From Meiothermus ruber DSM 1279 (GTDB taxonomy: Bacteria; Deinococcota; Deinococci; Deinococcales; Thermaceae): DNA of 64,000 nucleotides. The stretch lies in assembly GCF_000024425.1 (NCBI RefSeq), contig NC_013946.1:1364001-1428000 (forward strand), in the 5' to 3' direction. Below are positions 17,986 through 30,811 of the stretch, in pieces. How positions within the stretch are numbered: the first letter of the stretch is position 1; every line of letters begins with the position of its first letter. Both the position numbers and the translations under genes were made by a program. The notes under the pieces are model-generated. The model made no database searches. It saw only the letters and a program-made list of their open reading frames with translations, and was not told the DNA's origin.

Positions 17986-18015
17986 GTGACGGCCGGGCCA
18001 GACCTGGTATAAAAT
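17986..18015 (+). promoter_or_regulatory. Promoter of the metG leader transcript
   Basis: GTGACG (17986-17991) is a 4-of-6 match to the -35 hexamer. The -10 is TATAAA (18008-18013, 16-bp spacing) or TAAAAT (18010-18015, 18-bp spacing). TAAAAT lies six bases before the GTG of the leader ORF, the same geometry as the leaderless promoters elsewhere in the window. Confidence 0.65.
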
Positions 18016-18017
18016 AG

Positions 18018-20045
<2,028 letters not shown>

Positions 20046-26371: not shown

Positions 26372-29300
26372 CTAGGCCTTGCTCAGACCAAACTTGACGG
26401 AGCCCTCTTCGTCGGACAGCTCGGTGATGAAACCGGCCGGTTCGCCTGGCTCCAGGGAAAGGGCCAGGGTTTCTTCCTGAAGCCTCGAGCCAAACCTAGC
26501 CAAGGACTGCGCGTACTTGCCCTCGGCCTGGTAGGTTAGATGGATGCGATCCGAAACGTTCAGGCCCATATCCTTACGGGCTTGCTGCACCAGCCGGATC
26601 AGGTCGCGGCTGAGCCCCTCGAGCAGCAAGTCTTCATCGAGGCGAACCTCGAGCGCCGCCATATAACCCCCCTCCTCCTGGGCAGCAAAGCCCTCGGGCG
26701 AGAGGGCCTCGAGCAGCACCTCCGCAGGCTCCAGCACGATGCGCTCGCCCTCGAGCTCCAGGCTCAAACCCCGCCCTGCTTTGAGGGTTTGCGCCACCAT
26801 CTGGCTATCGAGCTCGGCCAGGGCGGCCCGGATGGCCGGAACCCGCTTGCCATACTTCTTGCCCAGCAGCGGGAGGTTGGGGAGCACCCGGTAGGTTAGC
26901 AACTCCTCGCCCAGGCCCAGCACCTCTACCTGCTTCACGTTCAGCTCTTCCGCAATTTCATCGGCAAAGCGGCGCAGACCGGCCAGCTCGGCCTCGCTGG
27001 GGGCGGTGACCAGCACCCTGGGCAAGGGCATGCGGGTCTTGATGCCGCTGGTGGCTCGAGCCCCTCGAGCCAGGCCCACAACCCTCACCACCGCACCCAT
27101 CTGGGTTAGAAGCGTCGAGTCAATCAGATCGGAATTGGCCTGGGGCCAGTCCGAAAGGTGCACCGACTCGGGGGCCTCGGGCTGAATCGAGCGCACCAGG
27201 TTTTGCCACAGGGCCTCGGCGATAAACGGCGTGAACGGTGCGGCGAGCTGGGTCACCGTGACCAGGGCCTCCCACAGGGTGGCATAGGCCGATTCGCGGT
27301 CGGCGGGGTTCTCGTTTTTCCAGAAGCGCCGGCGGTTGCGCCGCACGTACCAGTTGGATAGCTCCTCCACAAACTGCTCGAGGGCTTTGCCGGCCCCCCG
27401 GGCGTCGTAAGCATCCAGGGCAGCCGTGACCTGCTGGATGAGCTGTTGCTGGCGGGCTACCAGCCACCGATCCATCTCGGGACGCTCCTGCACAGCGGGG
27501 CGCTGGTTCAGGTTGGGCCTGTCTAGGTTGGCGTACAGCACAAAGAAACCGTACACATTCCACAAAGTGCCCAGAAAACCCCGCTGGGCCTCCTGCACCA
27601 GGCGCTCGGAGAAGCGCTTTTGCTCCCCTGGTTCCGAACCGGTGAACAGATACCAGCGCACCGCGTCGGCCCCGTACTTGTCGAACATGGGCAGGGGCTC
27701 CACCACGTTGCCCTTGCTTTTGGACATCTTGTGGCCCTTCTCGTCCACCAGGTGGCCCAGGCAGATGACGTTTTTGAAGCAGGGCTGGTCGTACAGCAAG
27801 GTCGAGATGGCGTGCAACGAGTAGAACCAGCCGCGGGTCTGGTCGATGGCCTCGCAGATGTAGTCGGCGGGGAAGTGCTTGCGCCACAGCTCGAAGTTGG
27901 CCTCAAAGCCGGGCAGCGGCTTGCCGTCCTGGTCAACCATCAGGTGCCACTGGGCGTAGGGCATGGCCCCCGAGTCGAACCAGACGTCGAGCACCTCCGG
28001 CACCCGGCGGAAGGTTTTGCCGTTTTTGACAAAGGTAATTTCATCCACGTAGGGGCGGTGCAGGTCGAGGTCGCTCAAGTCGCGGCCGACCAGCTCGGAA
28101 AGCTCCCGCACGCTGCCCACGCAGATGTACTCCGAGCCATCCTCCGAGACCCAGAAGGGCAGCGGCGTGCCCCAGTAGCGCTCGCGGCTGATGGCCCAGT
28201 CCACGTTGTCCTTGAGCCAGTTGCCGAAGCGGCCGTGCTTGATGTGCTCGGGAATCCAGTGGATTTTCTCGTTGTTGTCGTACAGGGCCTGGCGGAAGTT
28301 GGAGGTTTTGATGTACCAGCTCGGCTTGGCGAAGTACAGGATGGGGTCGCCGGTGCGGTCGTGGAAGGGGTAGCGGTGGCGGATCTGCCCGGCATGGTAC
28401 AGCAACCCGCGCTCCTTCATGATGCGGATCAAGCCCTTATCAGCATCTTTGAAAAACTTGCCGCGCTCGTCGGTAACCTGCATCAGGCCGTACTCGTTGG
28501 TGCCAAAGAGCAAGGGCGTGCCGTATTGGCGGGCCAGCTCCAGGTCTTCAGCCCCGTAGACTGGGGCCTCGTGGGCAATCCCCGAGCCGTCCTCGGCGCT
28601 CACGAAGTCGGCCAGGGCGATAAAGTGCATCACCGGCCGGCCATCGGGGCGCTTTTCCCCTTGCTGCTGTACCACGCCCAGCTCCACGCACACCTCGGGG
28701 AAGGGGGGGGTGTACTCCCACCACTCCAGATCGGCGCCCTTGAGGTGTGCGATCACCTCGAGCTCCTCCTTGTGCAGCTCTTTGAGCCGCTCCACCGCCT
28801 CGGTGGCAAAAATCAGGTGGCCCACCGAGGGCGACCGTACCACGGCGTAGTCCATCGCTGGGTTCACAGCGGCCATGGTGTTGGAGGGCAGCGTCCAGGG
28901 GGTGGTGGTCCAGACCAGAATAGCCAGGTTTTCTAAATCCTCGAGCCGCACCCCCTGGGCCTGGAGTTTTTCCCGTACCGCGGGCGGGGTGGTCTCGAGC
29001 TTCAAGGGGAAGCGCACATACACGCTGGGGTCGTCCACTTCCCGATAACCATCGGCAATCTCGTTTTGCGAGAGGGTGGTGGAGATGCGGGGCGAGAGCG
29101 GCACCACCTTGTAGTCCTGCACCACCATGCCCTTATCCCACATGCGCTTGAGCAGGTTCCAGACCGACTCGATGTAGGAGTTGTGGTAGGTCACGTAGGC
29201 GTTCTCGAGGTCCAGCCACATGCCCATGCGCTCGGTGAAGTAGTTCCAGTCCTCGATATTGGCGAAAACCCACTCCCGGCACTGCTTGGTAAACTCGGCG

Positions 29301-29653
29301 ATCTCCTGGCTGTTCAGGGCTTTGCGGCCCAGCACGCCCAGCTTTTTCTCCACCGCAATCTCTACCGGCAGGCCGTGGGTGTCCCAGCCCCCCTTGCGGG
29401 TGACATGGTAGCCCTGCATGGTTTTGTAGCGGGGGAAGATGTCCTTGAAGCTGCGGGCCAGCACATGGTGCATGGCTGGCTTGCCGTTGGCGGTGGGGGG
29501 GCCTTCGTAAAAGACAAACTCGCCCTTGGGTGCGGCTTTTCGATCCGACTTGGCAAAAATTTGATTCTCACGCCAAAAAGCCAGTACAGCTTCTTCCAGT
29601 TTGGGGAAATTGGTCTCGGTCACCTCTTGAAACAGCTTTTTTTCCTCCACCAT
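26372..29653 (-). CDS. ileS: Isoleucyl-tRNA synthetase (eukaryote-like type)
   Basis: Class Ia synthetase, 1093 aa. The HIGH region is GPPTANGKPAMHHVLARSFK, the core GGWDTHGLPVEIAVEKKLG, the editing domain includes TTTPWTLPSNTMAA, and KMSKS is at residues 642-646 (KGHKMSKSKGNVVEP). The signature fits the long, eukaryote-like IleRS class also found in Thermus. Where Thermus has a CPRCGTPLS zinc motif this protein reads SPRISTTLSQ, so that cysteine pair is gone. The open frame extends to 29794, but this lies within the T-box; ATG at 29653 (MVEEKKLFQEV), with AAAGGAA upstream, is the start. Confidence 0.96.
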   Translation of the reverse strand: MVEEKKLFQEVTETNFPKLEEAVLAFWRENQIFAKSDRKAAPKGEFVFYEGPPTANGKPAMHHVLARSFKDIFPRYKTMQGYHVTRKGGWDTHGLPVEIAVEKKLGVLGRKALNSQEIAEFTKQCREWVFANIEDWNYFTERMGMWLDLENAYVTYHNSYIESVWNLLKRMWDKGMVVQDYKVVPLSPRISTTLSQNEIADGYREVDDPSVYVRFPLKLETTPPAVREKLQAQGVRLEDLENLAILVWTTTPWTLPSNTMAAVNPAMDYAVVRSPSVGHLIFATEAVERLKELHKEELEVIAHLKGADLEWWEYTPPFPEVCVELGVVQQQGEKRPDGRPVMHFIALADFVSAEDGSGIAHEAPVYGAEDLELARQYGTPLLFGTNEYGLMQVTDERGKFFKDADKGLIRIMKERGLLYHAGQIRHRYPFHDRTGDPILYFAKPSWYIKTSNFRQALYDNNEKIHWIPEHIKHGRFGNWLKDNVDWAISRERYWGTPLPFWVSEDGSEYICVGSVRELSELVGRDLSDLDLHRPYVDEITFVKNGKTFRRVPEVLDVWFDSGAMPYAQWHLMVDQDGKPLPGFEANFELWRKHFPADYICEAIDQTRGWFYSLHAISTLLYDQPCFKNVICLGHLVDEKGHKMSKSKGNVVEPLPMFDKYGADAVRWYLFTGSEPGEQKRFSERLVQEAQRGFLGTLWNVYGFFVLYANLDRPNLNQRPAVQERPEMDRWLVARQQQLIQQVTAALDAYDARGAGKALEQFVEELSNWYVRRNRRRFWKNENPADRESAYATLWEALVTVTQLAAPFTPFIAEALWQNLVRSIQPEAPESVHLSDWPQANSDLIDSTLLTQMGAVVRVVGLARGARATSGIKTRMPLPRVLVTAPSEAELAGLRRFADEIAEELNVKQVEVLGLGEELLTYRVLPNLPLLGKKYGKRVPAIRAALAELDSQMVAQTLKAGRGLSLELEGERIVLEPAEVLLEALSPEGFAAQEEGGYMAALEVRLDEDLLLEGLSRDLIRLVQQARKDMGLNVSDRIHLTYQAEGKYAQSLARFGSRLQEETLALSLEPGEPAGFITELSDEEGSVKFGLSKA

Positions 29654-29682
29654 AACCTGGTTCCTTTCTGAGGGCGGGTCAC

Positions 29683-29980
29683 AAATAAAAACCGCCCGAC
29701 CTGTGACCCAAAGTTCCTCAGGTGCGGACGAGAAGCTCGGCTCGAGGTTTCCCGCGTTACCACCGCACTTCCTGAATATCGCCGATGCTCGCAACAGCTT
29801 CTTCGACTTTATTCAGGCCCTCATCTGCGCTGTTCCGGGCGCACCCGCTGGGTTCTACTCAGGCCCGCTGGCCCTTTCTTCCCAGGCTGCCTGGGGTGAT
29901 CCTCGGCTTTCAGGTTGCCGCCTGGCTCACACCCTCCCAGGCTCGCTGTATGGGCTTTGAAAGCCTACCTGTCCCCAGCT
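29683..29980 (-). promoter_or_regulatory. T-box riboswitch of ileS, specifier AUC
   Basis: Minus-strand leader RNA. Stem I base: CTGGGG (29978-29973) pairs with CCCCAG (29896-29891). Directly before the latter is the codon AUC (29900-29898) followed by A, the expected specifier position, so the cognate tRNA is Ile. Another stem, CCTGAATA/TATTCAGG (29817-29771), precedes the T-box GTGCGGTGGTAACGCGGG (29768-29751), whose UGGU would pair with the tRNA ACCA end. The antiterminator GTGCGG:CCGCAC uses 29727-29722, which the alternative terminator CCGC-ACCTG:CAGGT-cgg-GCGG also needs, followed by TTTTTATTT (29691-29683). Confidence 0.85.
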
Positions 29981-30002
29981 CTTTACACCGGCTGAAGCCT
30001 GT

Positions 30003-30026
30003 GCTATATTGCACTGCTGGCAACCG
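30003..30026 (-). promoter_or_regulatory. Candidate promoter of the ileS leader
   Basis: On the minus strand, TATAGC (30008-30003) lies about 17 bp downstream of TTAGCC. The start would fall near 29996, giving a ~340-nt leader that includes the whole T-box. Confidence 0.4.
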
Positions 30027-30077
30027 GCTAACCTGAATGGTAGCAAGCTGCTAATCCCGCGTCAACAACCAAATCAC

Positions 30078-30160: not shown

Positions 30161-30811
30161 ATGGATCTGTACCTGGATACTGCTGAAGTGAGTGAAATCA
30201 GAGAGATAGCCGCCTGGGGTGTGCTGGCTGGCGTTACCACCAACCCCTCCCTGATCGCCAGGTCGGGCCGCCCGCTCGAGCCCACCATCAAGGAAATCTG
30301 TCAGATCGTGCAGGGCCCGGTCTCGGCCGAGGTGGTTTCCACCACCGCTGCCGAGATGATCGCCGAGGGACGCCGTTTGGCCGCCATCGATCCGCACGTG
30401 GTGGTCAAGCTGCCCACCACCGTGGATGGCCTTAAGGCTTGCAAAGCGCTTTCTGATGAAGGCATCCGCATCAACATGACCCTGGTGTTCTCGGCCAATC
30501 AGGCCCTGCTATGCGCCAAGGCCGGGGCCTGGTGTGTTTCGCCCTTCCTGGGCCGCATCGACGACATCTCCTGGGAAGGCATGGAATTAATCCGCGAAAT
30601 TGCCGAACTCTTCCAGGTGCAGAACCTCAGCACCCGGATTCTGGCCGCTTCGATCCGCCATCCCCGCCACGTGACCCAGGCGGCCATGCTGGGGGCCGAC
30701 ATCGCCACCATGCCGGCCAAGGTTTTCCAGCAGCTGGTCAAGCACCCCCTGACCGATCTGGGGCTCAAGGCCTTTTTAGAAGACTGGGCCAAAGCCAATC
30801 CAAAAGTATAG
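30161..30811 (+). CDS. Transaldolase (TalC/FSA-like small type)
   Basis: 216 aa class I aldolase of the short transaldolase / fructose-6-phosphate aldolase family, acting in the nonoxidative pentose phosphate pathway. The N-terminus [35 protein letters not shown], the Schiff-base lysine in [39 protein letters not shown] and [10 protein letters not shown] are conserved. FSA and transaldolase activities cannot be separated with certainty from sequence; most bacterial members of this length are transaldolases. rho follows 42 nt later. Confidence 0.92.

Follow-up and report, generated by a model that had tools for sequence, protein, structure and literature searches.

A probable class I T-box upstream of ileS in Meiothermus ruber, with a further hairpin between the terminator and the Shine-Dalgarno sequence

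Results

The leader of ileS in Meiothermus ruber is, with a probability that we put at about 85%, a genuine T-box of class I, the class that controls transcription, and would adjust ileS to the charging of tRNA-Ile(GAU). This leader carries a full-length T-box on the minus strand at 29683–29985, directly upstream of ileS, in the 64,000-nucleotide stretch of DNA analysed here (the window), and sits in the gap before a divergent fructose-6-phosphate aldolase gene (30161–30811). The parts of a T-box are all present and are conserved among relatives, one strand is common to the antiterminator and the terminator, and the specifier codon is matched by a tRNA of the same genome.

Identification of the T-box

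An ileS T-box had been proposed at this position in a first-pass annotation of the sequence, and a covariance-model search with Infernal bears the proposal out. In a low-threshold search of 501 bases, the T-box model RF00230 matched positions 29985–29721 of the minus strand over model positions 1–219 of 219, with 57.1 bits and an E-value of 6.6e-12, and the E-value was 9.9e-12 when the whole genome was searched. The default Rfam scan of the window did not list the ileS T-box, because its score falls short of the RF00230 gathering score of 93 bits, which is the Rfam cut-off. Taken as a whole, the leader has an ordinary folding energy (z -1.38), which lends the T-box no support, so the evidence for it consists of the model match and the conservation described below. 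That the match is only a chance similarity in a GC-rich leader would suit the score under the cut-off and the ordinary overall fold, and is nevertheless extremely improbable given an E-value of about 1e-11, order-wide conservation, covariation, an invariant specifier and a matching tRNA.

Organisation of the leader

Every sequence element that the annotation had named is present in the leader, and the features recognised are as follows.

30060–30065, minus strand: candidate promoter -35 box TTGACG, assigned by eye, separated by 17 bases from TACCAT; several Meiothermus leaders show it too
30037–30042, minus strand: candidate promoter -10 box TACCAT, assigned by eye
29891–29978, minus strand: Stem I, long form, with AG-bulge and distal-loop sequences (CAGCGAGC, GGUGUGAGCC), from the RF00230 alignment
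29978–29973 and 29896–29891, minus strand: base of Stem I, CTGGGG/CCCCAG, from the sequence
29898–29900, minus strand: specifier codon AUC (Ile), read as ATC at 29900–29898, from the RF00230 alignment; conserved in 55 of 55 leaders
29848–29885, minus strand: Stem II region with AGUA motif, CTGGG/CCCAG, from the RF00230 alignment and the sequence
29771–29817, minus strand: Stem III, CCTGAAT/ATTCAGG, from the RF00230 alignment; the length of its insert varies in relatives
29768–29751, minus strand: T-box sequence GTGCGGTGGTAACGCGGG, from the sequence
29722–29768, minus strand: antiterminator GTGCGG/CCGCAC with bulge UGGUAAC (29762–29756) and GCGGG/CTCGT, from the RF00230 alignment and covariation of the outer helix
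29727–29722, minus strand: CCGCAC, common to antiterminator and terminator, from the sequence
29692–29731, minus strand: intrinsic terminator hairpin TCGTCCG(C)ACCTG / CAGGTCGGGCGG, from folding; its 5' arm overlaps the 3' arm of the antiterminator
29683–29691, minus strand: U-run TTTTTATTT, from the sequence, with TTTTT at 29691–29687
29668–29721, minus strand: post-terminator hairpin, with closing stem CTGAGG/CCTCAG and inner stem GGGTCACA/TGTGACCC, from folding, relatives and control terminators
29662–29669, minus strand: Shine-Dalgarno sequence AGAAAGGA, from the sequence; we take it to be complementary to the 3' end of 16S rRNA
26372–29653, minus strand: ileS, isoleucine--tRNA ligase, 1093 codons, with its ATG start at 29653–29651 (TIGR00392, 960.6 bits)

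Stem I is of the long type with a tRNA-elbow-binding module, as indicated by the full-length RF00230 alignment and by the module sequences, which were judged by eye.

Transcriptional switch

Since CGUCCGCAC is common to the antiterminator and the terminator, and a U-run follows the terminator, the T-box is assigned to the transcriptional class. The annotation had described an intrinsic terminator competing with the antiterminator, and the overlap of the terminator 5' arm with the antiterminator 3' arm, with the U-run behind it, agrees with that description. In class II T-boxes a sequestrator hairpin replaces the terminator, whereas in M. ruber terminator and U-run are present, and the Shine-Dalgarno hexamer in the terminator fold is predicted to be 0.56 unpaired at 37 °C and 0.78 at 60 °C.

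Fold balances were computed without tRNA, ribosome or kinetics. For an RNA ending at the U-run, the calculation favours the M. ruber terminator over the antiterminator by 5.1 kcal/mol at 37 °C and 4.5 kcal/mol at 60 °C, and the terminator is likewise preferred at that point in 21 of 22 leaders of the Meiothermus group at 37 °C and in all 22 at 60 °C. This predicted preference at the decision point is the usual default-OFF arrangement. The unconstrained fold of the M. ruber leader lacking the antiterminator still held the post-terminator hairpin, and the terminator was then imposed explicitly.

Binding of the tRNA and termination at this leader we infer to proceed along the following lines. While the leader is being transcribed, the AUC specifier in Stem I would pair with the GAU anticodon of tRNA-Ile. 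An uncharged tRNA would pair through its ACCA end with UGGU of the bulge, the antiterminator would keep CGUCCGCAC, and the polymerase would read through; with a charged tRNA, CGUCCGCAC would enter the terminator hairpin and transcription would halt at the U-run.

In seven leaders of deeper relatives (L119, L123, L124, L126, L127, L128 and L129) no clear U-run was found by pattern after the hairpin of the T-box sequence, and in these some other mode may have taken the place of termination.

tRNA match and other T-boxes of the genome

The cognate tRNA of the ileS T-box is present in the genome. A pattern search for tRNA-Ile gave two matches, neither of them useful, and the gene was found by running ARAGORN on tRNA loci: among the 30 loci examined, out of 47 tRNA matches, there is a single tRNA-Ile, with anticodon GAT, A73 and the end ACCA. 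Used as a query, this tRNA-Ile(GAU) returned one full-length identical copy in the genome. The UGGU of the ileS bulge fits its A73.

The genome contains three RF00230 matches, at ileS, at glyS and at a valS-like locus. The glyS T-box (L002, G000:C1:1917574-1917770) lies upstream of the gene for glycine--tRNA ligase. The third (L001, G000:C1:2292834-2293071) precedes a small unknown gene, which is followed by a ValS-like frame recognised from its sequence rather than by a family scan. Specifiers read by eye are GUC for the valS T-box, whose UGGU fits A73 of tRNA-Val, and GGC for the glyS T-box, whose UGGA fits U73 of tRNA-Gly, so that each of the three T-boxes agrees with its own tRNA. Three synthetase genes of one genome are thus under apparent T-box control with matching tRNAs.

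Conservation and covariation in relatives

RF00230 matches with an E-value of 0.1 or better were obtained in 59 of 61 genomes of the order, that of M. ruber included, and the 93-bit cut-off was exceeded in 6 of the 61. Control genomes also gave matches where T-boxes are unexpected, and for this reason only strong matches are counted, among them the ileS match of M. ruber. The ileS gene was located in 60 of the 61 genomes and upstream regions were taken from 58 of them, leaving out two in which the ileS match lacks the N-terminus (G045 and G054) and the one with no ileS (G049). A T-box core motif adjoins ileS in 55 of these 58 leaders; in the other three (L094, L095 and L096, from G044, G040 and G048) no core motif adjoins the gene, and the distance upstream to an RF00230 match exceeds 1 kb.

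All 55 leaders with the core motif have AUC as specifier, which was chosen by eye on the 3' strand of Stem I where there were several ATC candidates (L093, L102, L119 and L128). The antiterminator helix has the form GTGCGG/CCGCAC in 22 leaders, GCGCGG/CCGCGC in another 22, and a GTTGGG, GTCGGG, TTCGGG or TCCGGG form in the remaining 11. Pairs 2, 3 and 4 vary on both strands, which constitutes compensatory change: pair 2 is T-A in 29 leaders and C-G in 22, pair 3 is G-C in 44, T-A in 6 and C-G in 4, and pair 4 is C-G in 44 and G-C in 9, the automatic 3' arm being visibly misplaced in 3 of the 55 rows. The absence of a covariance hit, or relatives with no compensatory pairing and a varying specifier, had been named in advance as grounds for giving up the T-box, and the opposite was observed in each respect. 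The bulge reads UGGUACC in 39 leaders and UGGUAAC in 16, M. ruber having the latter.

Two leaders (L090 and L092, from G020 and G023) have a greatly shortened Stem I without AG bulge or distal loop, in which AUC stands in a small hairpin; despite this they keep Stem II, antiterminator, terminator and U-run. Transcriptional T-boxes generally need a long Stem I (PMC7583486, as far as that source was consulted), and these two leaders are a possible exception.

Stem III of L080, L078 and L102 holds long inserts resembling dispersed repeats, and matches to such inserts number 13 in G006, 4 in G016, 10 in G047 and 5 in G043. Insertion of repeats into Stem III appears to be tolerated in different lineages.

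Comparison with known T-boxes

The annotation had regarded a transcriptional T-box in this phylum as out of the ordinary. That point did not hold: a 2008 paper (PMC2494555) reports isoleucine and glycine T-boxes in Deinococcus radiodurans, and another (PMC3766115) counts the Thermus/Deinococcus group among the T-box-bearing groups, in the parts of these papers that were consulted. Since T-boxes of the phylum have been on record for that long, the M. ruber T-box itself is not new. It shares phylum and amino acids with the D. radiodurans examples, M. ruber having T-boxes at ileS, glyS and valS, and the consulted part of the D. radiodurans account mentions neither Meiothermus nor a post-terminator hairpin.

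With class I T-boxes in general (RF00230, for example ileS of Firmicutes) the M. ruber leader has in common a Stem I with specifier, Stem II, Stem III, an antiterminator with a UGGN bulge, a terminator sharing a strand with it, and a synthetase gene downstream. It differs from them in the bulge, which is UGGUAAC and not UGGUACC, and in the extra hairpin between terminator and Shine-Dalgarno sequence. Actinobacteria have translational ileS T-boxes, which agree with that of M. ruber in isoleucine specificity and target; in these, however, according to the portions consulted, a hairpin sequestering the Shine-Dalgarno sequence replaces the terminator and Stem I is mostly short, whereas M. ruber has a terminator with a U-run and a long Stem I (PMC1262725, PMC7583486). 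The M. ruber T-box is therefore ordinary in its main mechanism and extends the known record of the phylum to Meiothermus, while the added conserved hairpin makes it, as far as we have checked, a variant. A post-terminator hairpin in T-boxes was not found in a limited literature search, which most of the T-box literature lay beyond, and we make no claim that it is unpublished.

The post-terminator hairpin

Behind the terminator the annotation had noted a second stem near the Shine-Dalgarno sequence, GGGTCACA (29709–29702) paired with TGTGACCC (29683–29676). This stem is real, and the structure is larger than was described, the two segments lying inside a hairpin whose closing stem is CTGAGG (29721–29716) with CCTCAG (29673–29668). 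The whole hairpin starts immediately after the antiterminator, extends to the Shine-Dalgarno sequence and encloses the terminator 3' arm and the U-run. The same flush geometry, with no gap to the antiterminator and an end at, or one base into, the Shine-Dalgarno hexamer, is found in 16 of 22 Meiothermus-group leaders. Three leaders, that of M. luteus and those of two relatives (L085, L086 and L088), lack the hairpin and have only 5–6 bases between U-run and Shine-Dalgarno sequence, and L092, L093 and L131 did not show the geometry with the coding start included.

The hairpin arms diverge between lineages and the pairing is kept, as in L079 (CTGAGC with GCTCAG), L090 (CTG(A)GAAGCCCTA with TAGGGTTTCCAG) and L089 (CTG(A)GCTGTTTC with GGGACAGCCAG). 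For 12 lineage representatives, arms matched with their own partners failed to outpair swapped ones in only 79 of 100000 permutations, and the test was weaker (937 of 100000) when the closing stems were left out. The hairpins of the same 12 representatives are stronger than those of 63 control terminators from the M. ruber sequence (Mann-Whitney p 1e-4). In 19 leaders U-run and Shine-Dalgarno sequence are 12 or more bases apart, and 13 of these outdid their own shuffles at a p of 0.05 or better, the six exceptions being L084, L089, L091, L092, L093 and L131; for all of these statistics it must be kept in mind that the leaders are related and not mutually independent. A narrower test restricted to the 3' half of the terminator did not set ileS leaders apart from control terminators (mean z -0.66 versus -0.05).

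Outside the Meiothermus group 16 leaders were considered, in 7 of which no T-run was found by pattern and in five of which (L098, L099, L102, L104 and L111) the T-run is 4–10 bases from the Shine-Dalgarno sequence. Where the spacing is larger, z was -4.14 for L120, -1.76 for L125 and 0.68 for L122; the value of 0.23 for L097 means little, the pattern having taken the T-run too far upstream.

A weaker, suggestive related signal was given by glyS leaders in the terminator-3'-half test (mean z -1.57, n=20, not independent). Many of these leaders (L134–L153) have, downstream of the U-run, a sequence complementary to the 3' arm of the terminator, for example GTGCCGG ... CCGGCAC. The complementarity was not seen in L142, L143 and L145, which come from the genomes that also lack the ileS hairpin (G012, G007 and G015).

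Possible roles of the hairpin

Because the polymerase makes the 3' arm of the hairpin only once it has passed the U-run, the hairpin can have no influence on termination. GGGTCACA/TGTGACCC was considered both as a second terminator, which was rejected as there is no U-run behind it, and as a termination switch, rejected on the same order of transcription.

In the full-length M. ruber RNA, the computed balance shifts toward the antiterminator fold, the terminator advantage of +5.1 kcal/mol at 37 °C becoming -7.8 kcal/mol, and that of +4.5 kcal/mol at 60 °C becoming -3.9 kcal/mol. The antiterminator fold becomes the more stable one on the full-length mRNA in 13 of 22 leaders; the balance flips in none of the three leaders without room for the hairpin, and 6 of the 19 with room do not flip. 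After read-through, the hairpin would form between the antiterminator and the Shine-Dalgarno sequence and hold the orphaned terminator 3' arm and the U-run, which would make refolding of the mRNA into the terminator harder and leave the ribosome site open. On the strength of these predicted folds we tentatively suggest that the hairpin locks read-through mRNA in the ON fold with the Shine-Dalgarno sequence kept open. Were this so, the leader would illustrate how a choice made during transcription is safeguarded once the mRNA is complete, and the Meiothermus group, whose members have the hairpin, lack it or have it altered, would be a natural series on T-box shifts between transcriptional and translational control.

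It is also quite possible, at a little under even odds, that the T-box is a plain transcriptional one whose hairpin has no regulatory job and serves only as a spacer or keeps the GC-rich leftover strand from pairing elsewhere. The leaders noted above that leave no room for a hairpin, five with 4–10 bases (L098, L099, L102, L104 and L111) and three with 5–6 (L085, L086 and L088), would fit this; co-variation of the arms between lineages and the flush placement at both ends in 16 of 22 leaders argue against it.

A control at two levels, transcription first and translation second, in which leaked read-through mRNA in the terminator fold has its Shine-Dalgarno sequence paired with the U-run or neighbouring sequence and the hairpin acts as an anti-sequestrator, appears unlikely. 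All 22 leaders at 37 °C, and 21 of the 22 at 60 °C, are indeed predicted to expose the Shine-Dalgarno hexamer more in the antiterminator fold than in the terminator fold, and the latter pairs CUUUUGG with CCAGAAG in Calidithermus (L089 and L091) and CCUUUU with AGAAGG in M. granaticius (L084). In M. ruber, however, the difference in openness is small (0.76 versus 0.56 at 37 °C, 0.91 versus 0.78 at 60 °C), and the trend recurs in the three hairpin-less leaders and is therefore not specific to the hairpin. The annotation had suggested that the second stem might add translational control. By prediction the stem can coexist with the antiterminator and leaves the Shine-Dalgarno sequence open, and so is more likely to belong to the ON state than to sequester; strong pairing of the Shine-Dalgarno sequence is predicted for certain relatives only, in their terminator folds. 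Translational control in relatives of M. ruber is thus a possibility that folding raises.

Combining these elements, the leader may be a two-stage T-box, in which the tRNA decision is taken once in transcription and the hairpin, stacked on the antiterminator and ending at the Shine-Dalgarno sequence, then locks the ON state; in Calidithermus-like relatives it would oppose a fold that sequesters the Shine-Dalgarno sequence, so that one leader would control both transcription and translation. We regard this fuller scheme as speculative and, taken whole, rather doubtful.

T-box leader transcripts are processed in Bacillus, and a hairpin directly upstream of the ribosome site, near the start of the ileS mRNA, might by that parallel be an RNase processing or mRNA-stability element, which is improbable as the hairpin holds no recognised motif.

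Elsewhere in the window, where the annotation had proposed a leader-peptide attenuator on metG, a short ATGATG frame, ATGATGCGAAAAACCCGACGATAG, followed by a GC hairpin and TTTT, was observed at 18000–18110, upstream of metG (18075–20045).
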